Of a stretch of DNA of 64,000 nt, positions 10,691-38,906 are shown one piece after another. Source of the stretch: an uncultured Kordiimonas sp. (GTDB taxonomy: Bacteria; Pseudomonadota; Alphaproteobacteria; Sphingomonadales; Kordiimonadaceae); NCBI GenBank assembly GCA_947492375.1, contig CANLMI010000002.1:311529-375528 (forward strand), read 5' to 3'. The first letter of the stretch is position 1, and every line of letters starts with the position of its first letter. The notes under the pieces were generated by a model that saw only the letters and a list, made by a program, of their open reading frames with translations, did not search any database and was not told the origin of the DNA. Position numbers and translations under genes: made by a program.

Positions 10691-11832
10691 CAGACCTTAC
10701 TGCGCCCAAACGGCCAACGCATATATTTAACGAAGCGCGGTTTGAGGCAAACCTTAAAGAGCTGAAAACCTTTAAAGATAGCTGCGGCCTAAAAATTCTA
10801 TTGGCTTTAAAAGGCTATAACCCGCTACATTCAAGCGAACTGGTCAGCAAGTACCTGGACGGAGTTGCTGCTTCGTCAATCAACGAAGCGCGGTCCTCTT
10901 TTGAGCACTATAAAGGGGAAATTCATACCTATTGCCCAGCTTATGATGAAAACACTTTTGATGAATTGATCAAATATAGCAGTCATATCGTCTTCAATTC
11001 TCATCAGGACTTAGAGCGGTTTGCAGGCCAAGTTCCTAATAATGTGAAAATTGATATCCGCCTAAACCTCGAACATACTGATATGGAAACGACGGTGTTT
11101 GATGGCTACAATCCTAATAAACCGTTTTCCCGGTTTGGTATTACAGCGACGGAATTTAAACCTGAAGATATAGAAAAATACAGTGTAACAGGTGTGCATT
11201 TTCATGCTCTCTGTTCACAGGGCGCCGAAGATTTAGATCGCTGCGTCAAAACATTAGAGCAAAAATACCCCGATTTGCTGCATCAAGTTGAGCGCCTCAA
11301 TATGGGGGGCGGTCACCTCGTTTGCCACGACGATTACGACTATGACCTTTTAGCCTCAATCGTACGACGCTTAAAATCCACCTATGATCTGGATGTATAT
11401 ATCGAGCCCAGCGAACATGTATATAAAAACGTTGGAGTATTAAAAGCCCGCGTACTGTCTATAATCCAGAATGATATGCCCATCGCTATACTGAACGTCA
11501 GCGCCAAAAACCACATGCCTGACGTAATGGAAAGTCCTGACTATAATGTGGAAATCGAAGAGGGAATTTTTGGCCGAAACCGCGGCAAACACTCATATAT
11601 CCTAGGTGGCAACACATGCCTTACTGGGGATGTAATTGGTGACTATAGCTTCCTGCACCCCTTAGAAGTGGGGGATACAATCACGTTCCTCGATCAAACA
11701 GCCTATACGCTTGTTCAATGTCATCATTTTAACGGCGTCGGGCAACCCGACCTGATCGTTATGGGTAGTGACGGCCAAATCAAATTTGAACGTAAAGATA
11801 CATATGAGCGATATCTGACAACTGTTACCTAG
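10687..11832 (+). CDS. nspC: Carboxynorspermidine/carboxyspermidine decarboxylase
   Basis: PLP-dependent decarboxylase of the alanine racemase-like fold; it removes CO2 from carboxy(nor)spermidine to give the triamine. Lys42 in LLALKGYNP is the expected PLP Schiff-base lysine. GVHFHALCSQGAEDL, NMGGGHL and IEPSEHVYKN are family motifs of this branch. Length (381) matches NspC. It overlaps the upstream synthase by four bases, forming a two-gene operon that ends at the hairpin at 11883-11925. Confidence 0.92.
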   Translation: MTDLTAPKRPTHIFNEARFEANLKELKTFKDSCGLKILLALKGYNPLHSSELVSKYLDGVAASSINEARSSFEHYKGEIHTYCPAYDENTFDELIKYSSHIVFNSHQDLERFAGQVPNNVKIDIRLNLEHTDMETTVFDGYNPNKPFSRFGITATEFKPEDIEKYSVTGVHFHALCSQGAEDLDRCVKTLEQKYPDLLHQVERLNMGGGHLVCHDDYDYDLLASIVRRLKSTYDLDVYIEPSEHVYKNVGVLKARVLSIIQNDMPIAILNVSAKNHMPDVMESPDYNVEIEEGIFGRNRGKHSYILGGNTCLTGDVIGDYSFLHPLEVGDTITFLDQTAYTLVQCHHFNGVGQPDLIVMGSDGQIKFERKDTYERYLTTVT

Positions 11833-26145: not shown

Positions 26146-26847
26146 TTATAATTTGGCTTTCATTGCGCGCACCACTTCCTCCAACTTGGTAATTTGTTCC
26201 GTCAAATCAGCATCCTCTTTATTCCTAAAAGGCGCAACCAAGCCAATTGCAAGGAAAAGCGAGGGCAGCATCAAATCCAGATCGTCTACGTAATTATCAG
26301 CCGTACCACGCAGCATTAATGTCCGGCCAAGATGCTCTAAGCTGCCATAGAAAATATCGCGCAGGATAAACACTTTCTTATCTGGTGGAATATCACCACG
26401 GTTTCGTGCTTCCCGGATAACACCATCAAATATTTTAACATATGCCTTATTCAACTGATATTGCTCACTCTCCTGATAACTTGAGCTATCTCTATAGAGC
26501 ATGGAAGCGAGCATCAGCATTTGCCACTCCCCAAGTGACCTTTCCAAATGCAAGTGTGCCAAAAATCGCAGGCGCTCCTCTGTGGTCTTATAATTTAAAA
26601 TACCCTGTTCCGCACTCTCAGTAAGCGAAACATAAAAAGTACGCAAAACCGCAATCATTAAGGTTTTTTTATTATTGAAATAAAGATACAACGCACCTTC
26701 TGACAAACCACACCGTTTTGCTATTCCGGCCATAGTGGCTTTTTCAAAACCTTTTTCCAAAAAGGTCGCGTGGGCTGCATTTAGTATATCAGCCTCGCGA
26801 GCTTCTACCTTTTGTCGGCGCGTTTTACTTTTTTTCAAATCTGTCAT
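26146..26847 (-). CDS. TetR-family transcriptional regulator
   Basis: N-terminal helix-turn-helix of the TetR type (ILNAAHATFLEKGFEKATMA, then LSEGALYLYFNNKKTLM) with a helical ligand domain of about 160 residues. It starts 5 bases after the acyl-CoA synthetase gene on the same strand. The pair is divergent from the Atu-like operon, so it probably represses both directions and responds to an acyl-CoA. The N-terminus is very basic (KKSKTRRQK). Confidence 0.88.
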   Translation of the reverse strand: MTDLKKSKTRRQKVEAREADILNAAHATFLEKGFEKATMAGIAKRCGLSEGALYLYFNNKKTLMIAVLRTFYVSLTESAEQGILNYKTTEERLRFLAHLHLERSLGEWQMLMLASMLYRDSSSYQESEQYQLNKAYVKIFDGVIREARNRGDIPPDKKVFILRDIFYGSLEHLGRTLMLRGTADNYVDDLDLMLPSLFLAIGLVAPFRNKEDADLTEQITKLEEVVRAMKAKL

Positions 26848-26852
26848 TCGGT

Positions 26853-28394
26853 CTATTTTAATCTATCTCTTAGTATATATTTAAGCACCTTCCCCGTCGC
26901 ATTGCGAGGTAAGGCATCAATAATTTCAATTCTGCCGGGGTGCTTGTATTTTGCGAGTTTGTTCGCACAGAAATCCTGTGAATCCAACAAAGAAATATCA
27001 GAACTGTTATTGGGAACAACAAAAGCGCAGCCCACTTCTCCCCAAACAGGGTCGGCCGCTCCAACCACCGCCACTTCGAGTATTTCGGACATTTGATAAA
27101 GAATATTTTCAACTTCCGCTGGGTAAACATTTTCACCACCAGAGATATACATATCCTTGACTCTGTCCTCGACAAAAATAAAACCATCCTCGTCCATGCG
27201 GACGATATCACCGGTTTTAAACCAACCATCAACATATGATGCTTCATTGGCATCAGCCCTGTTCCAATACCCAGGCGTAACGGTCGGCCCTCTGAGCCAC
27301 AGTTCACCCGCTTCATTCGCAGCAGCATCTTCGCCGTCTGCATCTACGACGCGGCCTTCGCTGTGGCGCATAAGAACACCTGCAGAGCCTTCCTTTATTC
27401 CCACATGAGAAGCAGGCATAAAACAACAACTAGCCGCGTTTTCAGTCATACCGAGACCTTCTTGAACCGTAAGGCCGTTTTCACCCCACCATTTAATCAA
27501 ATCAACAGGTATAGCCTCACCGCCCGCACAAGCGACACAGATGTTCGAGAAATCAGCCGTTTCAACAAGCGAATGGTGCCGCATCGCATTATACATAGCT
27601 GGCACAGCGATAAAATGAGTGACACCATGCGATGGATCACCAATATATTTCAACATAGTTTCAGGGTCAAAGCTGCGCATAACCAGTGTTGTGCCCCCTA
27701 AATATATCGTCGAGCAATTAAAGATATTAAATCCACCAATATGAAATAATGGCATGACAGCAAGGTTCACCAATGGGCCGGAAATTCCAACGCTACCTGC
27801 AAAATTAAAAATCGAAAACAATAACATTTTATGCGTAATGATAACGCCTTTGGGCCGGCCAGTCGTACCCGACGAATACATCAGCATGCAGGTATCAACC
27901 ATGACTTGCTCCACCATATCATATGTTGGTTCAGCAGCTGCAATACCTCGCTCGAATGCGCTATCACCGCCAAGCCCGTCAGTATCAATCCAATGTTCAA
28001 TGCTAACTAACGATTTCAATTCAGTAATCGTCGTATTAAAAACAGTGTCGTAAATAACGACGTCAGGGTTTGCATCACTAATAATATATTCAAGTTCTGG
28101 GGCGGTCAGCCTGAAGTTCAACATTAAACATACGGCACCGATACGCCAACATGCGAACACAACATCATTCATGTCTGTTGAATTCATTGCCAATAGGCCA
28201 ACACGGTCCCCCTTAGAAACACCAAGCGAGGTTAAATAGGTTGCCACCTTCCCAACCCGGTCATGCATCTGATTGTAGGTATAATACCGCCTACTTGCGA
28301 GATCGACCTGTGCTACACTTGAACCAGAATTTACCGAATTATAGGCGATCCAATCGGTTATTAGGTTACCTTGGTCATGCGCAAACCCACTCAT
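26853..28394 (-). CDS. Acyl-CoA synthetase (AMP-forming)
   Basis: Adenylate-forming ligase activating a carboxylic acid with CoA, 513 residues. The AMP-binding signature LMYSSGTTGRPKGV and the later GLGMTENA, WFKTGDIV and the C-terminal catalytic lysine region (LPRNATGKVLKYILRDRL) are present. As partner of the Atu-like operon it may activate geranic/citronellic-type or other branched acids, a role played by a ligase gene in Pseudomonas atu loci. GAGGGG lies 7 bases before the ATG. It shares an operon with the TetR gene. Confidence 0.9.
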   Translation of the reverse strand: MSGFAHDQGNLITDWIAYNSVNSGSSVAQVDLASRRYYTYNQMHDRVGKVATYLTSLGVSKGDRVGLLAMNSTDMNDVVFACWRIGAVCLMLNFRLTAPELEYIISDANPDVVIYDTVFNTTITELKSLVSIEHWIDTDGLGGDSAFERGIAAAEPTYDMVEQVMVDTCMLMYSSGTTGRPKGVIITHKMLLFSIFNFAGSVGISGPLVNLAVMPLFHIGGFNIFNCSTIYLGGTTLVMRSFDPETMLKYIGDPSHGVTHFIAVPAMYNAMRHHSLVETADFSNICVACAGGEAIPVDLIKWWGENGLTVQEGLGMTENAASCCFMPASHVGIKEGSAGVLMRHSEGRVVDADGEDAAANEAGELWLRGPTVTPGYWNRADANEASYVDGWFKTGDIVRMDEDGFIFVEDRVKDMYISGGENVYPAEVENILYQMSEILEVAVVGAADPVWGEVGCAFVVPNNSSDISLLDSQDFCANKLAKYKHPGRIEIIDALPRNATGKVLKYILRDRLK

Positions 28395-28428: not shown

Positions 28429-28443
28429 CTTAGTTTAACTGAG
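28429..28443. promoter_or_regulatory. Candidate TetR operator overlapping a -35-like element
   Basis: Imperfect palindrome CTTAGTT-T-AACTGAG (6 of 7 pairs) in the 96-base divergent gap between the acyl-CoA synthetase and carboxyltransferase genes. TTGACT at 28425-28430 just overlaps it. Site and symmetry fit the neighbouring TetR protein; binding not shown. Confidence 0.4.
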
Positions 28444-28490
28444 GCTCCCTTATTGTAAAGAAATTTGATAAAACTTCAGGGATCGTGTGC

Positions 28491-30113
28491 ATGAGTGTAT
28501 TCACATCAAAAATTAATACTGGCTCTGATGCTTTTGTAGAAAACCGCCGCGACATGATCGCTTTGATTGATCGCCTGAGCGAATTGAACGCTCGCGGGGC
28601 TACAATCTCTGAAAAACGTAAACCACGTTTTGACAAACGAGGACAACTGACTCCACGTGAACGCCTGGCGCGCTTGCTTGATCCTGGTATGCCCTTCCTT
28701 GTTATTGGCAACCTAGCAGGATATTTGCTCGACACGAAAAAAGAGGAAAAATCAATTCCTGGTGCCACCATTATCGCTGGCATTGGTTTTATCTCGGGCG
28801 TCAGGTGCGTTGTCGTGGTGGATGATAGTGGTATTCAGGCAGGGTCTTTGACAACAGGCGGCGGCTACCGGCTGCAACGGGCGCAGGAAATTTCATTAGA
28901 ACAAAAGCTTCCCTTCGTGCACCTAGTCGAAAGCGCTGGTGGTGACCTTCTAAATTACACTGTCGAAGGCTTCATAAATGGCGGTCGTTTATTTGGAAAC
29001 TTGGCCAAACTGTCAAAAGAAGGCATTCCAGTTATCGCAACCCTGCACGGATCATCGACCGCTGGCGGTGCTTACATGCCAGGCTTAAGCGACTATGTAA
29101 TCGCAGTCAAAGAGCGGGGCCGTGCGTTTCTCGCTGGCCCGCCCCTTCTGAAGGCAGCAACTGGTGAAATAGCGACAGAGGAAGAACTTGGCGGCGCAGA
29201 AATGCATGCAACCACATCTGGATTAGCTGAGTATCTAGCCAATGATGACGGCCATGCTGTTTTAATGGCACGCGAACTCATTGCAAAACTAGATTGGAAC
29301 AAGGATATGCCCGCACCAAAGCAGGCATCCTTCCCAGAACCTAAATATGACCCAGATGAAATAGCTGGCACCGTACCCGTTGATTACCGGAAGCCTTATG
29401 ATATGCGTGAACTGGCGGCACGTATTGTGGACAACTCAGACCTACTGGATTTCAAACCACGATACGGTGTATCAACGGTATGCCTACAAGCGCACGTTTT
29501 TGGTCATGCCTGTGCCTTCATTGGTAATAATGGCCCCATTGACCCGGCAGGTGCCACTAAGGCAGCACAGTTCCTTCAGTTGTGTGATCAATCGAACATC
29601 CCTGTCATTTTCCTTCAAAACACTACCGGCTATATCGTCGGCACAGCGAGCGAACAGGCTGGTATGATAAAACATGGTTCAAAAATGATTCAAGCCGTTC
29701 GGAACCTAAGTGTTCCCAGGATTACCTTTATGGTGGGCGCTAGTTTCGGCGCAGGCAATTATGGCATGTGTGGGCGCGGCTATGACCCTGATTTTCTCTT
29801 CACATGGCCAAATGCCAAAACCAGTGTAATGGGCGGTGACCAGGCTGCAAAAACCATGTCCATGGTGGCACGCGGTCGTGCAACCGCGAAGGGTGAAACA
29901 GTCGATGAAGATGTCATCAAGGCGCAAGAAGCGATGTTAACCCATATGTTTGATAGTCAATCTGACGCCTTTTACACCTCAGGTCATTTGATGGACGACG
30001 GTATGATAGACCCGCGCGATACACGCAAAACACTTGGATTTGTGCTTGAAACAGTTCGCGAAGCTGGCATTAGGAAACTGAGGCCCAACAGCTTTGGCAT
30101 AGCAAGGATGTAG
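28491..30113 (+). CDS. Acyl-CoA carboxylase carboxyltransferase (beta) subunit, geranyl-CoA carboxylase-like
   Basis: Transfers CO2 from biotin to the gamma-methyl of a 3-methyl-2-enoyl-CoA. The 541-residue protein has both carboxyltransferase halves (GSSTAGGAYMPGLSDY with oxyanion-type glycines; GASFGAGNYGMCGRGYDPDF). It resembles methylcrotonyl- and geranyl-CoA carboxylase beta chains. Where methylcrotonyl enzymes have a bulky Phe (HFGRIF), this one reads NGGRLF with Gly164; I recall this Phe-to-Gly change as what opens the pocket to geranyl-CoA. I start at the ATG at 28491 (AGGGA 8 bases upstream) rather than the GTG at 28485. First gene of the Atu-like operon; the biotin subunit follows 7 bases later. 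Confidence 0.88.
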   Translation: MSVFTSKINTGSDAFVENRRDMIALIDRLSELNARGATISEKRKPRFDKRGQLTPRERLARLLDPGMPFLVIGNLAGYLLDTKKEEKSIPGATIIAGIGFISGVRCVVVVDDSGIQAGSLTTGGGYRLQRAQEISLEQKLPFVHLVESAGGDLLNYTVEGFINGGRLFGNLAKLSKEGIPVIATLHGSSTAGGAYMPGLSDYVIAVKERGRAFLAGPPLLKAATGEIATEEELGGAEMHATTSGLAEYLANDDGHAVLMARELIAKLDWNKDMPAPKQASFPEPKYDPDEIAGTVPVDYRKPYDMRELAARIVDNSDLLDFKPRYGVSTVCLQAHVFGHACAFIGNNGPIDPAGATKAAQFLQLCDQSNIPVIFLQNTTGYIVGTASEQAGMIKHGSKMIQAVRNLSVPRITFMVGASFGAGNYGMCGRGYDPDFLFTWPNAKTSVMGGDQAAKTMSMVARGRATAKGETVDEDVIKAQEAMLTHMFDSQSDAFYTSGHLMDDGMIDPRDTRKTLGFVLETVREAGIRKLRPNSFGIARM

Positions 30114-30120
30114 GGGATAT

Positions 30121-32094
30121 ATGATGAAAACAATCTCCAGCATTTTAATAGCCAACCGCGGTGAAATAGCATGCCGAATTATGCAAACAGTTCAAAACAT
30201 GGGCATCAAAGCGATTGCTGTATACTCAGACGCTGACAAGGATACCCTACATACCAAAATGGCGGATCAGGCAATTAACATTGGCCCTGCCCCTGTCACT
30301 CAATCGTACCTTATAATCGATAATATTATCGACGCTGCAAAAAAGGCTGGAGCTGACGCTGTTCATCCTGGGTACGGCTTTCTCTCTGAAAATAGTGATT
30401 TTGCTCGCGCTTGTGCTGTAAATGATATCATCTTCATCGGTCCTAGCGCTGAGGCCATAGAAATTATGGGTAATAAGGCCGCAGCCAAAGAAAAAATGAT
30501 TGAGGCAGGTGTCCCCTGTGTGCCCGGGTATAACGGTTCGGATCAAAATGATAACGCCTTCATTCAGGCCGCAGATAAAATTGGTTTTCCCGTCATGGTT
30601 AAGGCAAGTGCAGGTGGTGGTGGCCGTGGTATGCGCTTGGTTGAGCACCCAGCAGATCTACCCGATGCAGTAAAACTTGCTCGTTCAGAAGCCGAAAATG
30701 CCTTTGGAAACGGCCATCTTATCCTTGAGAAAGCAATTGTTAATCCGTCACATATTGAAATTCAGGTCTTTGGCGATAAGCACGGCAATATTATTCATTT
30801 GGGCGAGCGTGATTGCTCTGTTCAGCGACGGCACCAAAAGGTGTTAGAAGAAGCTCCGTCTATCAAAGTTACTGATGACCTCCGCGAACTTATGGGGCAA
30901 GCCGCCATCAATGCCGCAAAATCTGTTGATTATGTTGGTGCTGGCACCGTTGAGTTTCTCGTTGATGCCGACAACAACTTCTATTTTCTTGAGATGAACA
31001 CACGCCTACAGGTCGAACACCCTGTCAGTGAACTTGCGTATGACCGAGATTTTGTTGACCTTCAGATCCATATCGCAAATGGAAACAGTATAAGAGATAC
31101 CTCAACGGAATCACCGTCAACATGGGCGATTGAAGCCCGAGTATACTGTGAGGACCCGGAGAGTAATTTCTTGCCAGCAACAGGGCTGATCAATTTCTGG
31201 CGCACACCACACGGCGAAGGCATCAAAGTTGATACTGGCGTTAAGACAAATTCTGATGTGTCACCCTTCTACGATCCGATGGTTGCGAAAATCATTGGAT
31301 ACGGTGCATCACGCGAGGTTGCTAGGTCACGACTAGAAAAAGCGCTCAGGGAAACATGTTTGTTTGGCCCCAAGAACAATCTGGGCTTTTTAATCGAAGC
31401 TGTATCAAAGGAAACATTCAAGACTGGCCCTATAACTACAGCCTTTATTGATAATGAATTCAGCGACAAGCAGCCCAAAAACGTTGAACCACATCATTCT
31501 TTATACTCAATTGCAGCAGTTATTGAGCACGAATTGAATTCTAGAAGCCAGTTTAACGCGCTCAAAAATTGGACAAATGCTGGTTTTCTCACATCGCGTA
31601 GCCAATATAAACTCAACGATACGATCTCTGATATATTCGTAAAACCTGTCAAAACATCCATTTATGAGGTAACTTTGGATGATACTAGTGTCACGATTGA
31701 GATCGATAACTTTAATAACAATGACGCTATTCTAAACATCAACGGTGAACGCGTTTTCGCCACACATTATAAAATGGGCGAAGGTGATTTCTGGCTTAAT
31801 ATCAATGGCTATACAACACGTGTCACCAACCTGATTTATCAGCCTCCACAAGCATCATCAGATCAAGCCGATGGCAATATTACTGCACCAATGCACGGCC
31901 TGTTGCTCGACCTTATGGTCAAAGAAGGTGACATTGTTGAAAAAAATCAACCGCTTGCCGTTTTAGAAGCCATGAAAATGCAACATGAAATCAAGGCTGA
32001 TGTAGCCGGTACAGTGAAGAGCATACATGGAAGTTCAGGACAGCAGATAGCAGCCGATGCCCTTTTAATTGAGATTGAAGAACATGCGGGTTAA
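30121..32094 (+). CDS. Acyl-CoA carboxylase biotin-containing (alpha) subunit
   Basis: Carries the biotin carboxylase domain (ILIANRGEIACRI start, ATP-grasp loop KASAGGGGRGMR, FLEMNTRLQVEHPVSE) at residues 1-450, a linking domain and a C-terminal biotinyl domain. Lys619 in LEAMKMQHE is the biotin attachment site. Length (657) matches AtuF and the methylcrotonyl-CoA carboxylase alpha chain. Two ATGs in a row (30121, 30124) follow GGGGA; the second is better spaced. It forms an alpha6beta6-type enzyme with the upstream subunit, by analogy. Confidence 0.93.
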   Translation: MMKTISSILIANRGEIACRIMQTVQNMGIKAIAVYSDADKDTLHTKMADQAINIGPAPVTQSYLIIDNIIDAAKKAGADAVHPGYGFLSENSDFARACAVNDIIFIGPSAEAIEIMGNKAAAKEKMIEAGVPCVPGYNGSDQNDNAFIQAADKIGFPVMVKASAGGGGRGMRLVEHPADLPDAVKLARSEAENAFGNGHLILEKAIVNPSHIEIQVFGDKHGNIIHLGERDCSVQRRHQKVLEEAPSIKVTDDLRELMGQAAINAAKSVDYVGAGTVEFLVDADNNFYFLEMNTRLQVEHPVSELAYDRDFVDLQIHIANGNSIRDTSTESPSTWAIEARVYCEDPESNFLPATGLINFWRTPHGEGIKVDTGVKTNSDVSPFYDPMVAKIIGYGASREVARSRLEKALRETCLFGPKNNLGFLIEAVSKETFKTGPITTAFIDNEFSDKQPKNVEPHHSLYSIAAVIEHELNSRSQFNALKNWTNAGFLTSRSQYKLNDTISDIFVKPVKTSIYEVTLDDTSVTIEIDNFNNNDAILNINGERVFATHYKMGEGDFWLNINGYTTRVTNLIYQPPQASSDQADGNITAPMHGLLLDLMVKEGDIVEKNQPLAVLEAMKMQHEIKADVAGTVKSIHGSSGQQIAADALLIEIEEHAG

Positions 32095-32105
32095 GGACAC
32101 TTAAA

Positions 32106-33248
32106 ATGAAAAATCCATTTGAAACCCAAGAACGTCGTGCATTTCAAGAAACGGTTGAACGCTTCATTCAAAATGATGTTGTCCCCTTTGCAAATGAATG
32201 GGACGAAGCAGGAACGTTTCCTTGGTCATTACACGAGAAAGCAGGAAGCATCGGCTTATTTGGGTTCGGTATCGATGAAAAATACGGTGGTATTGGATTT
32301 GATGATGCTTTCATGCGTGCAAGCATGGGGGTCGAGATGGGTCGCAGCGGTATTGGCGGGGCGATGGCCAGTATGGGTTCCCGAAACATCATGACTGGCC
32401 CTATACAAATGCTGGCAAACGACGAAATTAAAGCGGCGGTCTTACCAGAGGTAGTATCAGGCAAAAAGGGCGGTGCACTTGGCATCACGGAACCATCAGG
32501 TGGTTCTGACGTTGCCAATATCAAAACAACAGCGCGCAGAGATGGTAATCATTTCGTTCTTAATGGGCAAAAAACCTTTATCACCGGTGGTTTGAACGCA
32601 TCCCATTTTGTCATTGGGGCACGTACTGGCGGCAATGGAATTGGAGGTATATCTTTGTTTTACATTCCTGCTGACACACCCGGCTTTACAAGGCAATCTG
32701 TCGGCGGAAAAATGGGATGGTGGTGCTCCGATACCGCAAGCTTATTTTTCGATGATGTTCGGATACCGGCAAAAAATATGCTAGGTGAAGAAAACCGTGG
32801 CTTTATCTCCATAATGAATAATTTCAATTATGAACGATTAGGCATGGTGGCACAGTGTGTTGGCATGTCGAGGCTTTGCATAGATGAAAGCATTAAGTGG
32901 GCACAGGAACGTCAAACATTCGGCAAACCCATGATCAAGCATCAAGTTATCCGGCACAAAATAGCCGATATGTCAGCAAAAATAGATGCACTACAAGCGT
33001 TGGTTTATCAAATATGCTGGAATATAGAAGATGGTCATATGCCAGTCGCTGAAATTTCAAAGGCAAAGTTTTTTGGCTCTAAAGTACTGGAGTTTTGTGC
33101 GAGTGAGGCTATGCAAATTCTTGGCGGGGCTGGGTATTTGCGTGGCAGTTCCGTGGAGCGTACTTACCGCGAAGTGAAAGTGATGTCGATTGGCGGCGGC
33201 TCCGAAGAGATCATGCGTGACTTAGCCGTTAAGCAAATGGGGTTATAG
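32106..33248 (+). CDS. Acyl-CoA dehydrogenase, branched-chain (isovaleryl/citronellyl-CoA) type, copy 1
   Basis: FAD enzyme making a 2,3-double bond in an acyl-CoA. The 380-residue protein has the usual three parts; GITEPSGGSDVANIKTTA and FITGG belong to the FAD/substrate region. The base in medium-chain enzymes (Glu in YEG near the C-terminus) is replaced by GGGSEE, whereas Glu243 in NYERLG occupies the isovaleryl-CoA-dehydrogenase-type position. This suits substrates with a methyl branch at C3, as in citronellyl-CoA (AtuD). AAGGA precedes the ATG; 11 bases follow the biotin subunit gene. Confidence 0.9.
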   Translation: MKNPFETQERRAFQETVERFIQNDVVPFANEWDEAGTFPWSLHEKAGSIGLFGFGIDEKYGGIGFDDAFMRASMGVEMGRSGIGGAMASMGSRNIMTGPIQMLANDEIKAAVLPEVVSGKKGGALGITEPSGGSDVANIKTTARRDGNHFVLNGQKTFITGGLNASHFVIGARTGGNGIGGISLFYIPADTPGFTRQSVGGKMGWWCSDTASLFFDDVRIPAKNMLGEENRGFISIMNNFNYERLGMVAQCVGMSRLCIDESIKWAQERQTFGKPMIKHQVIRHKIADMSAKIDALQALVYQICWNIEDGHMPVAEISKAKFFGSKVLEFCASEAMQILGGAGYLRGSSVERTYREVKVMSIGGGSEEIMRDLAVKQMGL

Positions 33249-33249
33249 A

Positions 33250-34050
33250 ATGTTGTTAACCGTAGACTTGAAAGAAGAGCAGCGGGCGCTTTATGATCTT
33301 TTAAAGGACCAGGAAGAAACCTTCTGGCAAACGCCGTCGCAATTTAAGGGCTGGACTGTATGGGATATTATCGCCCACTTGCATTATTCTGACCATATGG
33401 CCCTGACAGCTGCCACAAGCGATGAGGCGTTTCACAAACTTCAATCAGAGCTTTCCCCCGTATTCAAGGGCAAAAAGTCACTTAAAGACTATGCCAATGA
33501 ATGGGTAGGCAAAATATCAGGTGCCGCATTATTAGAGCGCTGGAAAGTCATGTTTGATGAAATGTGCACTCGTTTTGACAATGCACCAGACGGTCAGCGT
33601 TACAAATGGTTTGGCCCTGATATGGGAGTACGTATGTTCGTAACAGCCCGTCAAATGGAAATATGGGCGCACGGGCAGGCAATATACGATCTATTAGGGT
33701 TAGAGCGAGAGAATAGCGATCGCCTTAAAAGTATTGTTGTTATTGGCGTTAAAACATGTGGGTTCAACTTTACACTGCACGATGAAAGCCCACCTGAAAC
33801 AGTGCCTTTCGTAACCCTAACATCGCCAGAAGGAAACCAGTGGTCTTTCGGTGATGAAGATATGAACGAACGGATAGAGGGCCAAGCCAGCGAGTTTGCA
33901 CAAGTAGTGACCCAAACCAGAAACATCAAAGACACAAACCTTAAGGTAATAGGAGCAATAGCGAACAAATGGATGGCTATCGCACAGTGCTTTGCAGGTG
34001 GGGCAGAAACACCCCCTGCTCCCGGCATTCGCCGTAAAATGATAAATTAG
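33250..34050 (+). CDS. TIGR03084-type putative metal-binding protein (DinB/maleylpyruvate isomerase-like fold)
   Basis: A 266-residue protein of unknown function. The N-terminal half looks like the DinB/mycothiol-isomerase four-helix fold: WTVWDIIAHLHYSDHM gives His43, His45 and His49, and MEIWAHGQAIYDLLG gives His141, a likely metal site. The C-terminal part resembles a small sterol-carrier-like domain. I recall the family as TIGR03084, often beside acyl-CoA dehydrogenase genes. It starts one base after the first dehydrogenase and is followed by the second, so a role in the same acyl-CoA route is likely; reaction unknown. Pseudomonas atu loci, as I recall them, lack it. Confidence 0.75.
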   Translation: MLLTVDLKEEQRALYDLLKDQEETFWQTPSQFKGWTVWDIIAHLHYSDHMALTAATSDEAFHKLQSELSPVFKGKKSLKDYANEWVGKISGAALLERWKVMFDEMCTRFDNAPDGQRYKWFGPDMGVRMFVTARQMEIWAHGQAIYDLLGLERENSDRLKSIVVIGVKTCGFNFTLHDESPPETVPFVTLTSPEGNQWSFGDEDMNERIEGQASEFAQVVTQTRNIKDTNLKVIGAIANKWMAIAQCFAGGAETPPAPGIRRKMIN

Positions 34051-34068
34051 GCAAGGACATAGACCAAG

Positions 34069-35217
34069 ATGATTTTCAACGAGCAACATAACGAAATTCG
34101 TAGAACAGTCGCAAAATTTGTCGAAAATGAAATCAACCCGAACGTAGACGAATGGGAAAATGCTGGTATTTTTCCAGCGCACGAGCTTTTCAAGAAAATG
34201 GGTAATCTTGGCTTGTTGGGTATTTCAAAGCCCGAAGCCTATGGCGGGCTAGGCCTTGATTATTCCTATGAGATGGTATTTGCTGAAGAACTGGGTGCTG
34301 TCAGGTGTGGCAGTATTCCAATGGCGATCGGTGTTCAAACCAATATGGCGACCCCCGCGCTCGCTGTATTCGGGAATGACGATATAAAAGAAGAGTTCCT
34401 GAAACCCGCCATCGCTGGTGATATGGTGTGTTCAATTGCAGTCAGTGAACCACATGCAGGGTCGGATGTTGCAGCCATAAAAACCAACGCAGTATCCGAC
34501 GGTGACGACTATATTATCAACGGCACAAAAATGTGGATCACCAACTCAACACAAGCCGATTTCCTGTGCGTACTCGCAAACACTGATGACGGTAACAAAC
34601 ACACAAATAAGTCGTTAATTATTATCCCTACCAAAACGCCGGGTGTTTCATTCTCAGAACGCTTGAATAAACTGGGCATGCGCTCCAGCGATACAGCGCA
34701 AATATTTTTCGATGATGTCCGTGTGCCCAAGCGTTACAGGATCGGCGATGAAGGGGCTGGTTTCAGAATGCAAATGATCCAGTTTCAGGAAGAGCGTCTA
34801 TATGCTGCGATGAGCTGTATTAAAGGGTTCGAGCTTTGCATCAATGAAACCATAGAATACACACGCGAGAGAAAAATATTTGGTGATAGTGTCCTTGACA
34901 ACCAAGTGGTTCAATATCGTCTTGCGGAACTGCAGACCGAAATCGAATGTTTACGTGCTTTGATGTATCAGGCGACCGAAGATTACGTAAATGGTATCGA
35001 CGTCACCAAGTTTGCAACAATGGCCAAACTTAAAGCCGGTAGGCTCGCACGCGAAGTTACTGATAGTTGCCTGCAATATTGGGGCGGCCAAGGCTTTATG
35101 TGGGACAATGTCGTTTCACGAAGTTACCGCGATTCGCGCTTGACCTCAATTGGCGGCGGAAGTGATGAAACTATGCTACGTGTTCTCGCTGGCATGATGG
35201 GCCTATCGAAACGATAA
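34069..35217 (+). CDS. Acyl-CoA dehydrogenase, branched-chain type, copy 2
   Basis: A 382-residue FAD dehydrogenase, clearly different from copy 1. It has SEPHAGSDVAAIKTNA, MWITNS and RSSDTAQIFFDDVRVP. Glu242 in QEERLYAA is in the isovaleryl-type position, and the C-terminus reads SIGGGSDETM with no medium-chain catalytic Glu. One copy may act on citronellyl-CoA and the other on a chain-shortened or different branched product. AAGGA lies upstream but about 11 bases away. Sits between the TIGR03084 gene and atuA. Confidence 0.9.
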   Translation: MIFNEQHNEIRRTVAKFVENEINPNVDEWENAGIFPAHELFKKMGNLGLLGISKPEAYGGLGLDYSYEMVFAEELGAVRCGSIPMAIGVQTNMATPALAVFGNDDIKEEFLKPAIAGDMVCSIAVSEPHAGSDVAAIKTNAVSDGDDYIINGTKMWITNSTQADFLCVLANTDDGNKHTNKSLIIIPTKTPGVSFSERLNKLGMRSSDTAQIFFDDVRVPKRYRIGDEGAGFRMQMIQFQEERLYAAMSCIKGFELCINETIEYTRERKIFGDSVLDNQVVQYRLAELQTEIECLRALMYQATEDYVNGIDVTKFATMAKLKAGRLAREVTDSCLQYWGGQGFMWDNVVSRSYRDSRLTSIGGGSDETMLRVLAGMMGLSKR

Positions 35218-35245
35218 GACTATATTTACGTCGGAGTGCGTAGTG

Positions 35246-37051
35246 ATGAGCAATAAAAAAACAATAAAAATCGGCGGAGCAAGTGGTTATTGGGGCGAAA
35301 GCGCTATGTCCACCCCCCAGCTTCTCGAAGTCGAAGGTCTGGACTATATTGTCTATGATTATCTCGCCGAAATCACGATGTCGATTATGGCCCGTGCCCG
35401 CGCCAATGACCCCAACAAAGGATATGCAACTGATTTCGTTACTGCGGTATTAAAACCCAATTTAAACAACATCGCCAAGAAAGGCATTAAAATATTATCG
35501 AATGCTGGCGGTGTTAACCCCGATGCATGTGGCAAAGCCGTTCGAAAACTGATCGATGAATTGGGACTAGACCTAAAGGTTGCTGTTATCCTAGGCGATG
35601 ACTTAATGCCCAAGCTGGATGCTATAGCATCCCAAGCACCTGATGAAATGTTCAAGGGCACAAAATTCCCATCGGTGGCAACGGTTGCGAGTGTGAATGC
35701 ATATTTAGGCGCAGGGCCAATTATAGAGGCCCTAGAAGCTGGTGCAGACATTGTTATTACAGGAAGATGCGCAGATAGCGCCCTTACGCTTGCAGCATGC
35801 CAATATGAATTTAGGTGGAAAAACAGCGAATACGACCTATTAGCCGCAGGTAGCTTAGCTGGACATTTACTTGAATGTGGGCCGCAGGCAACTGGCGGAA
35901 ACTTTACCGACTGGCATTTGGTCGCAAACACAATTCATAATATCGGATATCCACTAGCCGAAGTTGATGAAACGGGTTTCATCACCATAACAAAACCGGA
36001 TAATACAGGCGGGCTCGTTTCTGTTGGCAGCGTAAGCGAACAGCTAGTTTACGAAATAGAAGACCCACAAAATTATTTATTGCCAGACGTTATTTGTGAT
36101 TTCGCTAGCGTAACAATTCATCAAACTGATACAGATAGAGTTCGTGTATCTGGCGCAAAAGGTCGCGCACCAACGGGTTTATACAAAGTTTCCACAACCT
36201 ATATGGACGGCTTTAAATGTGGAACCCTGATTACATTCGTAGGTTTTGATGCCGCAAAAAAAGCTAAAACGCTCGGCGATGCGGTATTGAAGCGTGCCAA
36301 CATGAAGTTAAGAGCGAGTAATGCTGGCGATTACACTGAAACATCAATTGAACTGATTGGCGATGACAGCCAGTTTGGTGGAAGTGATCTCCAGTCAAAG
36401 GAAGTGACCTTAAAAATTGCGGCAAGACACCCGAAAGCCGAAGCCCTTGGTCTACTTCTCAAGGAAATAGCCGGTATAGGGCTTGCAACACCTGCTGGAT
36501 TAACTGCTTTTAACGCCGGACGGCCCAAACCTACACCAATGGTTCGACTGTTTTCCTTTCTAATTCCGCAAGAAGATTTAAATGTTCAAATTCAACTTGA
36601 TGAAAACCTTATCGATACCGCGAAGACAATCCAGAAAGGCCGAGCAGTAGACACCTTCAGACCAAACTCGCCTGAAATTGCTGATATCGCAAATAGCATC
36701 AAGGTACCTTTAATCAACCTCGCATGGGCGAGAAGCGGCGATAAAGGCGACCGTGCAAATATTGGTATCATCGCACGCAGAGCAGACTATATACCTTACA
36801 TTTGGGGGGCTTTAACTGAACAATCGGTACAGCAACATTTCGCACATTTTAACCCAAGCAGCGTAGAGCGCTTTTTTCTCCCAGGTATGAATGCAATAAA
36901 TTTTGTTTTGCATGATGTCCTCGGCGGCGGCGGTATCGCAAGTTTGCGTGCTGATCCACAGGGCAAAGCATATGGCCAAATACTTCTGCATCATATGATA
37001 GAGATACCTGCGGAATTAGCGCATAAACTTGAACAAGAAAGACAAATATGA
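35246..37051 (+). CDS. atuA: AtuA-like protein (acyclic terpene utilisation family, DUF1446)
   Basis: A roughly 601-residue protein of the AtuA family. The N-terminal ~450 residues form the DUF1446 region (KIGGASGYWGES, ILSNAGGVNPDACG, ADIVITGRCADSALTL). A separate C-terminal domain of about 100 residues begins near VPLINLAWARSGDKGDRANIG. Biochemical function is not established as far as I know; genetically it marks geranyl/citronellyl-type pathways. GGAG lies 9 bases before the ATG at 35246; a GTG at 35243 is an alternative. Its stop overlaps the next ATG (ATGA). Confidence 0.88.
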   Translation: MSNKKTIKIGGASGYWGESAMSTPQLLEVEGLDYIVYDYLAEITMSIMARARANDPNKGYATDFVTAVLKPNLNNIAKKGIKILSNAGGVNPDACGKAVRKLIDELGLDLKVAVILGDDLMPKLDAIASQAPDEMFKGTKFPSVATVASVNAYLGAGPIIEALEAGADIVITGRCADSALTLAACQYEFRWKNSEYDLLAAGSLAGHLLECGPQATGGNFTDWHLVANTIHNIGYPLAEVDETGFITITKPDNTGGLVSVGSVSEQLVYEIEDPQNYLLPDVICDFASVTIHQTDTDRVRVSGAKGRAPTGLYKVSTTYMDGFKCGTLITFVGFDAAKKAKTLGDAVLKRANMKLRASNAGDYTETSIELIGDDSQFGGSDLQSKEVTLKIAARHPKAEALGLLLKEIAGIGLATPAGLTAFNAGRPKPTPMVRLFSFLIPQEDLNVQIQLDENLIDTAKTIQKGRAVDTFRPNSPEIADIANSIKVPLINLAWARSGDKGDRANIGIIARRADYIPYIWGALTEQSVQQHFAHFNPSSVERFFLPGMNAINFVLHDVLGGGGIASLRADPQGKAYGQILLHHMIEIPAELAHKLEQERQI

Positions 37052-37860
37052 TGACTGTCTTACCCCATACGAAAGCGATAACAGCCGACTTGAACAATGG
37101 TTGGTTACAAATACGCTTCAACACACTGGAAAACAGAAACGCTCTGTCAGATATAATGGTTACTGATATTACGAACGTGTTGAATGCGGTGAAAGATGAT
37201 CGCAATGTCAGGGGAATCAGTTTTCGAGGAAATGGCGGTATTTTCTGTGCTGGTGGTGACCTAAAGGGGTTTCGCTCGGTTTGTGAACAAGGCGCAGAAG
37301 GCAAAACTTCGGCTGAGACGCTTAGTGCAACCGCTGGTGAATTTTTCGCCCTTATCGCAAACACGCCTCAAATCACCGTTGCCCTAATCGAAGGTGCCGC
37401 GATGGCTGGTGGATTTGGTATCGCCTGTTGCTGCGACATCATCGCCTCAACGTCTGATGCCAAGTTTGCTCTCACTGAAACCCGTATTGGTATTACACCA
37501 GCGCAAATTGCTCCTTATGTACTGGCACGACTTGGTCTGACAGTCGGCAAACGCATGATGCTTTTGGGGTCACGTTTTGACGGCGAAAAGGCAAAAGAAC
37601 TTGGCCTTGTTGATTATCTTGCTAGCTTACCAGAAGATTTAGCCGGGATAGAAAGCCAGATAAAATCAGAAGCACTCACCTGTGCCCCCAATGCTATTGC
37701 TGTGACTAAAGATATTGTTCGCAAGGTCCAGTCCGGCCTTCCAGCAGAGGCTTTTATCACGGAAGCAGCTGACGCATTCGCAACCGCCCTTGTAAGCACA
37801 GAGGGACGAGAAGGTATTGCGTCTTTTCTTGAAAAACGCAAACCAGATTGGTCACAGTAA
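37048..37860 (+). CDS. Enoyl-CoA hydratase/isomerase family protein (AtuE-like)
   Basis: Crotonase-fold protein, 270 residues. The oxyanion hole region is seen in GIFCAGGDLKGF and AAMAGGFGIACCCDI; ALTETRIGITPAQIAPYVL places the usual Glu in the active site. In the atu pathway this step hydrates the glutaconyl-CoA-type product of the carboxylase (isohexenylglutaconyl-CoA). Coupled to atuA by a four-base overlap. No HMG-CoA-lyase-like gene follows, so the final cleavage must be encoded elsewhere. Confidence 0.87.
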   Translation: MMTVLPHTKAITADLNNGWLQIRFNTLENRNALSDIMVTDITNVLNAVKDDRNVRGISFRGNGGIFCAGGDLKGFRSVCEQGAEGKTSAETLSATAGEFFALIANTPQITVALIEGAAMAGGFGIACCCDIIASTSDAKFALTETRIGITPAQIAPYVLARLGLTVGKRMMLLGSRFDGEKAKELGLVDYLASLPEDLAGIESQIKSEALTCAPNAIAVTKDIVRKVQSGLPAEAFITEAADAFATALVSTEGREGIASFLEKRKPDWSQ

Positions 37861-37910: not shown

Positions 37911-38906
37911 ATGAAACCGATCATAAGAGCATTCAACGTCACTCAAGAAACATGGCAATTAAAAAAGCCTTTTATCATTGCCCGTGGTTCAAGAACTGCA
38001 ACTAAAACTATAACTGTACATATTACAGAAAATGGCTTCACAGGAAGAGGGGAAGCTGTTGCTTCGCCTCGTTATGGTGAAACGGACGAGTTAGTTCTCA
38101 AGGAACTACAACATGTTTCTCATGCAATCGAGCAAGGTATTTGCCGGGAGGAACTGCACTCTCTTCTACCGGCGAGTTCCGCCCGAAACGCAATTGACAA
38201 CGCATTGTGGGACCTGGAGGCTAAACTCTCAAAAATTGATATCGGCATCAGCTCTAAACTTGGATGGCCGACATCTGTTTCAACAGTCCAAACCGTCAGT
38301 ATTTTAACACCGCACGAAATGCACAAAGAAGCAAAACTCCTTGAAAAATTCCCTGTCATTAAAGTCAAACTCAATGCCCAACACATAATTGAGCGTGTTC
38401 AAGCTGTTCATCAAGGCGCACCTGAGGCAAAAATTATCATAGACGCAAATGAAAGCTGGGATATTAACATTTTAAATAGCGTTAGTGATCAACTAGAAAA
38501 GTACGGTGTTGTCATGATTGAACAGCCTTTAAAAGCTGGTGATGACGCACACCTTATTGATTATACAGGATTATTACCAATTTTCGCCGATGAAAGCTGC
38601 CATACAGTCAAGGACTTACCTACATTAAAAGGCCTTTATAAGGGTATTAATATAAAACTAGACAAAACAGGTGGCTTAACCGAAGGCCTAAAACTATTCA
38701 AAGCTGCCCAAGATATGAAGTTTGATATCATGGTAGGATGTATGCTGGGGACTTCACTTGGTATGGCGCCTGCTTTATTCATAGCACAGCATGCCAAGTA
38801 TGTAGATGTAGATGCACCCGCCCTGCTTGCGGCAGACCATAACTTCGGTCTCACGATCCAAAACGGCCTTGTTTCTGAGCTCGATCAACGACTATGGGGT
38901 GCTTAA
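37911..38906 (+). CDS. Dipeptide epimerase (enolase superfamily)
   Basis: A 331-residue muconate-lactonizing-subgroup enzyme that likely epimerises L-Ala-D/L-Glu or a similar dipeptide from peptidoglycan recycling. Landmarks are KVKLN (the KxK base pair), IIDANESW, MIEQPL and FADES (metal ligands), and KLDKTGGL (second lysine). DVDAPALL near the C-terminus is the DxD motif of dipeptide epimerases. It begins 50 bases after the hydratase gene with a weak ribosome site, so co-transcription is possible but the function is unrelated to the Atu-like operon. Confidence 0.87.
   Translation: MKPIIRAFNVTQETWQLKKPFIIARGSRTATKTITVHITENGFTGRGEAVASPRYGETDELVLKELQHVSHAIEQGICREELHSLLPASSARNAIDNALWDLEAKLSKIDIGISSKLGWPTSVSTVQTVSILTPHEMHKEAKLLEKFPVIKVKLNAQHIIERVQAVHQGAPEAKIIIDANESWDINILNSVSDQLEKYGVVMIEQPLKAGDDAHLIDYTGLLPIFADESCHTVKDLPTLKGLYKGINIKLDKTGGLTEGLKLFKAAQDMKFDIMVGCMLGTSLGMAPALFIAQHAKYVDVDAPALLAADHNFGLTIQNGLVSELDQRLWGA

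Follow-up and report, generated by a model that had tools for sequence, protein, structure and literature searches.

The closest described system to the locus analysed here is the Pseudomonas atuABCDEFGH/atuR cluster. Geranyl-CoA carboxylase (GCC), the carboxylase of this type of route, is believed to take its CoA ester in the cis form alone. One published passage, which names no gene, describes isomerization of trans-geranyl-CoA to the cis form before carboxylation of geranyl-CoA (PMC8637051), and AtuD is listed elsewhere as a putative desaturase yielding cis-geranyl-CoA (PMC4097962). Release of acetate is ascribed to AtuA in one paper's account of the step (PMC4847356) and to LiuE in another's (PMC4097962). 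The locus also encodes a protein of the TIGR03084 family, described in the initial annotation as putatively metal-binding and DinB-like, and as a candidate for an unassigned step. In our search of the open-access literature, neither the family name nor its spelled-out label occurs and no function was found.

Organization of the operon

The window (the whole stretch of 64,000 nucleotides that was analysed, from an uncultured Kordiimonas sp.) contains an operon of closely packed genes at 28485-37860, as identified by ORF calls and family scans. We consider it very probable that this operon encodes an Atu-type pathway. The gene order is carboxylase beta, carboxylase alpha, acyl-CoA dehydrogenase 1 (ACAD1), TIGR03084, acyl-CoA dehydrogenase 2 (ACAD2, AtuD), AtuA and hydratase. 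The intergenic gaps in this order are 7, 11, 1, 18, 25 and -4 nt, so the one-base spacing initially given for the core genes applies only between ACAD1 and TIGR03084. The features of the locus are:

26146..26847 (-), TetR-family regulator in an AtuR-like position (PF00440, E 7.4e-15)
26853..28394 (-), AMP-binding acyl-CoA ligase, AtuH-like role (PF00501, E 1.8e-74)
28429..28443 (.), putative TetR operator CTTAGTTTAACTGAG, an imperfect palindrome (from conservation with locus L034)
28485..30113 (+), carboxyltransferase beta subunit of geranyl-CoA carboxylase type, AtuC-like (5ikl_B match, selectivity site)
30121..32094 (+), biotin carboxylase and biotin carrier alpha subunit, AtuF-like (PF02786, PF00289, PF02785, PF00364)
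32106..33248 (+), ACAD1 (PF00441/02770/02771)
33250..34050 (+), TIGR03084 protein, candidate E/Z isomerase acting on 3-methyl-2-enoyl-CoA (TIGR03084, 276.6 bits)
34069..35217 (+), ACAD2, AtuD (citronellyl-CoA dehydrogenase) orthologue (67% to L160)
35243..37051 (+), AtuA, proposed acetate-releasing lyase (PF07287, E 8.7e-142; PF23544)
37048..37860 (+), enoyl-CoA hydratase, AtuE-like (best PDB relative 4zu2)

The TetR and ligase genes are divergent, as had been noted. The TetR counterpart in L034, a locus of the same genus, is 74% identical, likewise divergent and adjoins the ligase gene. The best NCBIfam match of the window's ligase is long-chain-fatty-acid--CoA ligase, with a score under the cut-off of that model. 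CTTAGTTTAACTGAG lies within the longest block conserved between the divergent intergenic regions of the window and L034, and in the window it coincides in part with an imperfect inverted repeat; it is a candidate TetR operator. The beta subunit gene starts with GTG at 28485, upstream of the in-frame ATG at 28491 that was initially chosen. A promoter and terminator scan gave counts close to those of shuffled sequences (27 vs. a mean of 23.7; 14 vs. 13.6) and was not used.

Carboxylase, hydratase and dehydrogenases

Family scans and PDB relatives of the carboxylase, AtuA and hydratase support the Atu-like route of the initial annotation. The carboxyltransferase beta subunit scores 618 bits against that of geranyl-CoA carboxylase (5ikl_B) vs. 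442 against MCC (3u9r), and at the site that sets GCC apart from MCC in selectivity it carries Gly and lacks the 3-residue insertion. This pocket Gly varies among TIGR03084-linked carboxylases: Phe without the insertion occurs in three Halieaceae-type rows, and the TIGR03084-linked carboxylase of L115 is MCC-type at the site. The closest PDB relative of the hydratase is 4zu2, a putative isohexenylglutaconyl-CoA hydratase (198 bits, E 1.5e-57).

Two branched-type dehydrogenases had been annotated. ACAD2 is an AtuD orthologue: across 379 aa it shares 67% identity with the corresponding dehydrogenase in L160, a canonical atuABCDEFG-type cluster. ACAD1 is an extra enzyme of a separate group (34% identity to ACAD2). 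Its relatives (53-91%) occur in 10 of the 28 other TIGR03084-bearing clusters that have AtuA and both carboxylase subunits, and in none of the nine such clusters without TIGR03084. AtuB and AtuG are missing from the cluster, as reported earlier: none of the 10 proteins scanned between 26149 and 38903 is an SDR. Genome-wide probing with the proteins in the AtuB and AtuG positions of L160 returned only generic SDRs (top scorers 30-32% identity, none above 34%).

The TIGR03084 protein

The protein scores 276.6 bits against TIGR03084 (NCBI cut-off 247.95), so the family assignment stands. It also passes TIGR03083, 'maleylpyruvate isomerase family mycothiol-dependent enzyme' (108 vs. 50 bits), and MDMPI_N (74.7 bits, cut-off 24.2). 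Residues H43, E137 and H141 are invariant in 69 of 69 aligned sequences; the alignment took 68 of the 80 named loci (L098, L103, L106, L107, L109, L112-L114, L117, L121, L123 and L124 were dropped). This triad was assigned from motif and spacing rather than from residue-level structural alignment. Its spacing (94 and 4) nearly equals that (92 and 4) of the zinc ligands of mycothiol-dependent maleylpyruvate isomerase (MDMPI), given as His52, Glu144 and His148 in the source cited (PMC4351081).

The AF2 model of the protein (pLDDT 95.1) has as its sole Foldseek matches at E <=1e-3 MDMPI (2nsf) and its mutant (2nsg). Alignment with 2nsf (Z 15.3, rmsd 4.1) covers 219 residues across model residues 1-246, including both domains. 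By Z score, yeast IRC4 and ClbS chains equal 2nsf (15.1-15.3), yet only 142-149 residues align. The C-terminal domain weakly resembles lipid-binding SCP2 (Z 4.4-6.5). Sequence profiles searched against the PDB returned only 1rxq (E 0.55-0.56); the relation to MDMPI is drawn from HMM cut-offs, motif and fold. An MDMPI-type two-domain fold with a His/Glu/His triad is predicted. For TIGR03084 proteins, no activity is known to us, nor any substrate or thiol, and, to our knowledge, mycothiol is not expected in Pseudomonadota.

AtuA and acetate release

Residues 4-454 of the AtuA model align with subunit A of citramalate lyase (9evf_A; Z 31.2, rmsd 3.5, 419 aligned), and the AtuA profile matches 9erq_A (E 3.8e-7). 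Foldseek also matched the model to subunit B (9evf_B; prob 1.00, E 3.8e-3, TMt 0.67), without giving the place on the model; this match is presumably due to the C-terminal AtuA_ferredoxin domain. The likeness supports the proposal that AtuA is the acetate-releasing lyase, and bears on a step for which the two accounts cited above disagree (PMC4847356; PMC4097962). No paper mentioning AtuA together with 'citramalate lyase' was found in the open-access literature searched. We rejected the possibility that AtuA or TIGR03084 replaces an absent HMG-CoA lyase, as the genome encodes an HMG-CoA lyase scoring over the cut-off. Its gene is on the window's contig (C2), away from the liu-like genes on contig C1.

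Recurrence of TIGR03084 across genomes

AtuA or carboxylase genes occur near TIGR03084 in 29 of the 80 named loci, and four actinobacterial plasmids show the same association; TIGR03084 is found repeatedly next to AtuA and carboxylase genes in Pseudomonadota, Myxococcota and the plasmids. Thus, what was initially seen as an odd protein wedged into the operon is no accident, and an insertion unique to this genome is ruled out. The commonest arrangement among named loci is AtuA-CTb-ECH-BCa-TIGR03084, so the unusual part of the window is its gene order and retained AtuD. Four annotated clusters on actinobacterial plasmids contain AtuA (two of these clusters are close relatives), and in all four TIGR03084 overlaps AtuA, not a dehydrogenase gene, by 4 bases. 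Of the 29 named loci with the linkage, 11 (some truncated by contig ends) have no AtuA within 8 kb, and CaiB genes, without AtuA or carboxylase, are near TIGR03084 in 10 of the 80. In 60 of 103 TIGR03084 rows, some at contig ends, no AtuA or carboxylase gene is within 9 kb. Thus, the protein also serves other contexts.

On a TIGR03084 tree that excludes rows with <220 matched residues, the carboxylase-linked label requires 24 changes, no fewer than 15 of them imposed by starred branches, and a single inherited cassette is therefore unsupported. The label is nonetheless more clustered than in 500 shuffles.

Clusters bearing TIGR03084 are mostly without AtuD and SDRs. We compared 38 clusters having AtuA and both carboxylase subunits, pooling TIGR03084-anchored and AtuA-anchored samples with partly related members: AtuD (at least 55%) is present in 8 of 9 clusters without TIGR03084 vs. 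4 of the 29 that have it, the window being one of these 29. An alcohol/aldehyde-type SDR (defined here by tblastn similarity to one or other of two L029 SDRs, not to AtuB itself) is absent nearby in 26 of the 29. The nine are the full clusters among 20 AtuA regions fetched; in the remaining 11, AtuA+CTb+BCa did not occur together within the stretch read (L177, among them, is at a contig end). The genomes of the nine gave zero TIGR03084 matches, and the cis ester must come by another way there.

Proposed pathway and alternatives

The analysis shows the gene content, the relatives, the GCC-type pocket residue, the predicted TIGR03084 fold and triad, the predicted AtuA fold and the recurrence of the linkage; every reaction assigned to this organism is inferred, as are the role of TIGR03084 as an isomerase and its use of a thiol. 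The ligase would form an acyl-CoA from a 3-methyl-branched acid, for desaturation by ACAD1 and/or the AtuD orthologue. The TIGR03084 protein would then follow the chemistry of maleylpyruvate isomerase. A metal-bound low-molecular-weight thiol would attack the trans (E) 3-methyl-2-enoyl-CoA at its conjugated double bond, rotation about that bond would follow and the thiol would depart, giving the cis (Z) ester needed by the carboxylase. With TIGR03084, the pathway could be supplied by a dehydrogenase such as ACAD1 or by a trans acid that is unsaturated from the start. The GCC-type carboxylase would put CO2 on the 3-methyl group, the AtuE-like hydratase would add water, and AtuA would split off acetate to yield a 3-oxoacyl-CoA for beta-oxidation.

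The initial suggestion that TIGR03084 performs an unassigned step fits these findings, and the likeliest such step would be double-bond isomerization ahead of carboxylation. An E/Z isomerase of 3-methyl-branched 2-enoyl-CoA is suggested by the GCC-type carboxylase, AtuE-like hydratase, AtuD orthologue, TIGR03083 score, MDMPI-like model and invariant triad, by the published trans-to-cis isomerization and the putative cis-yielding desaturase AtuD, by the scarcity of AtuD in clusters with TIGR03084 and by the return of the linkage across the TIGR03084 tree. Against it, the window keeps an AtuD orthologue alongside TIGR03084, no TIGR03084 activity is known to us and mycothiol is not expected in Pseudomonadota. 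The 60 unlinked rows, the nine clusters without TIGR03084, the plasmid overlap with AtuA, the variation of the pocket Gly and the mixed sampling of the cluster comparison also count against it. We make this assignment tentatively, at somewhat below an even chance. The whole explanation, an Atu route for 3-methyl-branched (terpenoid-type) acids with TIGR03084 as isomerase before carboxylation, we credit at slightly less than even. The substrate may, as was initially suggested, be another branched acid, of the 3-methyl type (e.g., a longer isoprenoid), reflected by TIGR03084 and ACAD1, which is compatible with the isomerase role. The carboxylase pocket, large because GCC-like, the two dehydrogenases with differing relatives and the weakly SCP2-like C-terminal domain favor this, whereas the identity of the AtuD orthologue to that of the canonical cluster argues for a citronellyl-like substrate. 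We consider a different acid possible but not probable.

The metal site of TIGR03084 suits a thiol transferase equally well, one that would protectively add glutathione (or CoA) to reactive terpenals or enoyl-CoA. Metal-dependent bacillithiol transferase activity is reported for all eight Bacillus subtilis DinB/STL relatives (PMC5815605), and L039 and L045 have an aldehyde dehydrogenase gene close to the cluster. However, the structural match spanning both domains is to an isomerase, and a terpenal detoxifier would go with a nearby SDR, which most TIGR03084 clusters lack; this function is unlikely. A later action with AtuA, in glutaconyl-CoA double-bond isomerization or in help with the lyase step, would explain the 4-base overlap in the plasmid clusters, but seems quite unlikely given the nine clusters that do without TIGR03084 and the linked loci with no AtuA nearby, some of them contig-end cases. 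Very improbable is a passenger with no pathway role: TIGR03084 is frequently found without carboxylase, but its linked label, although scattered, is more clustered than in shuffles and the linkage spans several phyla.

Extending the isomerase reading to the family, TIGR03084 proteins would form a branch of the maleylpyruvate isomerase family and be the trans-to-cis isomerases for 3-methyl-branched 2-enoyl-CoA esters, gating terpenoid-acid carboxylation, with a non-mycothiol thiol in Pseudomonadota and the AtuD/AtuB arrangement replaced in most TIGR03084-bearing clusters, and AtuA would be a fused citramalate-lyase-type, acetate-releasing, possibly nucleotide-dependent enzyme. This combination is rather doubtful. 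If true, a widespread uncharacterised family would gain a concrete reaction, and a thiol-isomerase mechanism would operate in organisms where mycothiol production is not anticipated.

Comparison with known systems

The window shares with the Pseudomonas atu cluster a GCC-type carboxylase, AtuA, an AtuE-like hydratase, an AtuD orthologue, a ligase and a TetR regulator. Unlike that cluster, it is without AtuB and AtuG and has ACAD1 and TIGR03084 in addition. The order also differs (beta-alpha-ACAD1-TIGR03084-AtuD-AtuA-hydratase with a divergent ligase vs. A-B-C-D-E-F-G). The liu-like (leucine/isovalerate) set of the same genome (L189) shares with the window the families of its carboxylase, hydratase and dehydrogenase, but has a beta subunit of MCC type, with Phe and the 3-residue insertion, that is 44% identical to that of the window. 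The reaction proposed for AtuA and that of citramalate lyase (CmlA/CmlB; 9erq, 9evf) both free acetate from a tertiary hydroxy acid, and the AtuA model resembles subunit A, with subunit B presumably corresponding to the C-terminal AtuA_ferredoxin domain; AtuA differs in being one fused chain, with 17% identity to subunit A and a predicted CoA-ester substrate. With MDMPI (2nsf), TIGR03084 shares the two-domain fold (as modelled), the His/Glu/His triad and its near-equal spacing, but identity in structural alignments is 8-12% and TIGR03084 belongs to a CoA-ester pathway.

Operon organization

The seven-gene operon encodes, in order, carboxyltransferase beta, biotin carboxylase alpha, an acyl-CoA dehydrogenase (ACAD1), a TIGR03084 protein, a second acyl-CoA dehydrogenase (ACAD2), AtuA and an enoyl-CoA hydratase.

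Features of the locus (window positions)
28485-37860: compact seven-gene operon, with gaps of 7, 11, 1, 18, 25 and -4 nt
26146-28394: ligase and TetR gene pair, divergent from the operon
37911-38906: gene for N-acetyl-D-Glu racemase DgcA (408.8 bits, over the cut-off), on the same strand as the operon and 50 nt past it

The identical ten-gene arrangement, from TetR through the DgcA-like racemase gene, which is likewise downstream, was found in a locus of the same genus (L034) at 62-96% identity. The racemase probably has a function separate from that of the operon. An imperfect 15-base palindrome (28429-28443), inside a conserved block of the divergent intergenic region, is a putative TetR site.

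Pathway type

The closest match to the carboxyltransferase is the beta subunit of geranyl-CoA carboxylase (GCC; 5ikl_B, 618 bits, versus 449 for 9tps and 442 for methylcrotonyl-CoA carboxylase, MCC, 3u9r). In PMC4673880, Gly162 is the size gate of GCC, and its place in MCC is taken by Phe191 together with three inserted residues. The window subunit has Gly aligned at this site and no insertion, whereas the liu-type beta subunit of the same genome has Phe and the insertion. Elsewhere, this genome encodes a liu-like carboxylase, hydratase and dehydrogenase set and HMG-CoA lyase. The window hydratase is closest to 4zu2, a putative isohexenylglutaconyl-CoA hydratase. ACAD2 shares 67% identity over 379 residues with the dehydrogenase of L160, a canonical cluster with its genes arranged as in atuABCDEFG (AtuA, SDR, beta, dehydrogenase, hydratase, alpha, SDR); ACAD1 belongs to a separate group (34% identity to ACAD2). 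AtuB and AtuG are missing from the window cluster, and probing the whole genome for them returned only generic SDRs, none above 34% identity. The initial annotation had correctly recognized an Atu-like operon with a TIGR03084 protein and two dehydrogenases that lacks AtuB and AtuG.

Over residues 4-454, the AlphaFold2 model of AtuA (mean pLDDT 86.9) resembles subunit A of citramalate lyase (9evf_A; Z 31.2, rmsd 3.5, 419 aligned; next row Z 9.7), and an 18-row AtuA profile reached 9erq_A at 3.8e-7. Foldseek also matched the model to subunit B (9evf_B; probability 1.00, E 3.8e-3, TMt 0.67; position on the model not stated), a match that probably falls on the C-terminal domain (Pfam AtuA_ferredoxin, residues 488-586). 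According to its entry title, the solved citramalate lyase complex contains ADP and pyruvate. Citramalate lyase also releases acetate, and the predicted fold therefore supports AtuA as the acetate-releasing enzyme. PMC4847356 likewise assigns this step to AtuA, whereas PMC4097962 assigns it to LiuE.

The TIGR03084 protein

The window protein scores 276.6 bits with TIGR03084 (cut-off 247.95) and 108 bits with TIGR03083 (cut-off 50), the family of mycothiol-dependent, maleylpyruvate isomerase-type enzymes, and thus passes both. At E <=1e-3, its very confident model (pLDDT 95.1) matched only maleylpyruvate isomerase (2nsf) and the H52A mutant of this enzyme (2nsg) in Foldseek. VIA-align aligned 219 residues to 2nsf, spanning both domains; SCP2-type chains weakly resemble the C-terminal domain (Z 4.4-6.5). 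H43, E137 and H141, invariant in 16/16 and 69/69 sequences, appear to correspond by motif and near-equal spacing, rather than by residue-level structural alignment, to His52, Glu144 and His148, the isomerase zinc ligands given in PMC4351081.

Among 398 genomes of the phylum, including this one, TIGR03084 was matched in 15 (12 over the cut-off) and AtuA in 83; seven of the 29 genomes of the window's family have TIGR03084. The TIGR03084 alignment found at least 587 loci. Among the 80 best of these, AtuA, carboxyltransferase beta or biotin carboxylase alpha lies within 8 kb in at least 29 (18, 26 and 29, respectively) and a CaiB gene is nearby in at least 10 others, counts that are lower bounds because contig ends cut many loci. 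The most frequent order is AtuA, carboxyltransferase beta, hydratase, biotin carboxylase alpha, TIGR03084. Carboxylases linked to TIGR03084 do not all have Gly at the gate: other small residues occur, three Halieaceae-type sequences have Phe without the insertion, and that of L115 is MCC-type.

Four annotated actinobacterial regions of the seven plasmid regions fetched encode AtuA, both carboxylase subunits and TIGR03084, which overlaps AtuA by 4 bases; two have TIGR03084 in different surroundings and one lacks annotation. In Mycolicibacterium chubuense, the cluster of plasmid pMYCCH.01 is split by an IS481 transposase gene (L041:12568-13542) into a TIGR03084-AtuA half and a ligase-dehydrogenase-carboxylase half. 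A Streptomyces plasmid carries TIGR03084 (L043:9971-10780) in a polyketide-like neighbourhood with no Atu genes annotated, and the family is therefore employed in other chemistry too.

In a tree of 103 TIGR03084 proteins, 43 linked to AtuA or carboxylase genes within 9 kb and 60 not, the linked label requires 24 changes, of which starred branches force at least 15, although shuffling it 500 times gave less clustering. Thus, linkage was gained or lost many times, and TIGR03084 also functions in other settings.

In 10 clusters, a nitronate monooxygenase/FabK-like flavoprotein gene, possibly for an enoyl reductase, separates carboxylase alpha from TIGR03084.

Flavoprotein gene
L064:8854-9978: PF03060, E 1.9e-41; equivalents in L069, L070, L085, L090, L098, L102, L104, L108 and L122

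After TIGR03084 in L120, a cluster with a GCC-type carboxylase and no AtuA in the stretch read, is a beta-keto acid cleavage enzyme-like gene (10722-11639; NF052387, 180 bits, below the cut-off of 382) that may stand in for the AtuA lyase step. One further carboxylase-linked locus likewise has such a gene.

Possible function and comparison with Atu clusters

We compared 38 clusters that encode AtuA and both subunits of the carboxylase, namely that of the window and 37 that were fetched. An AtuD orthologue (>=55%) is present in 8 of the 9 clusters without TIGR03084 versus 4 of the 29 with it (Fisher p 8e-5; 5/6, p 0.002, after collapsing four same-family clusters among the nine). A match to either of two L029 SDRs shows the same pattern (8/9 vs 3/29; p 3e-5), and ACAD1 relatives (>=45%) the opposite one (0/9 vs 11/29; p 0.04). 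The TIGR03084 matches in the 398-genome sample include none of the genomes of the nine clusters without TIGR03084. The comparison strongly hints that TIGR03084 replaces the AtuD/SDR arrangement but does not amount to a test, because a different gene served to sample each group and relatives are included.

According to PMC4673880, GCC should accept the cis ester alone. PMC8637051 describes an isomerisation of trans-geranyl-CoA to the cis ester, and in PMC4097962 AtuD is listed as a putative desaturase that yields cis-geranyl-CoA. TIGR03084, which comes from a family of cis-trans isomerases and is found in mostly AtuD-less clusters, fits a gap in cis-ester supply. We infer a reaction in which a thiol, metal-activated glutathione or another, would add to the conjugated enoyl-CoA, with bond rotation and then thiol elimination. 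The main points against an isomerase are that many TIGR03084 genes lie apart from any carboxylase, that some clusters manage without TIGR03084, that the gene is coupled to AtuA in actinobacteria and that the window also has an AtuD orthologue; TIGR03084, ACAD1 and AtuD occur together in the window, L034 and L071. The TIGR03084 protein, although uncharacterised, is a well-motivated enzyme candidate. The initial annotation regarded the TIGR03084 protein as out of place, a view that does not hold because the protein turns up repeatedly as a component of one variant of Atu-like clusters.
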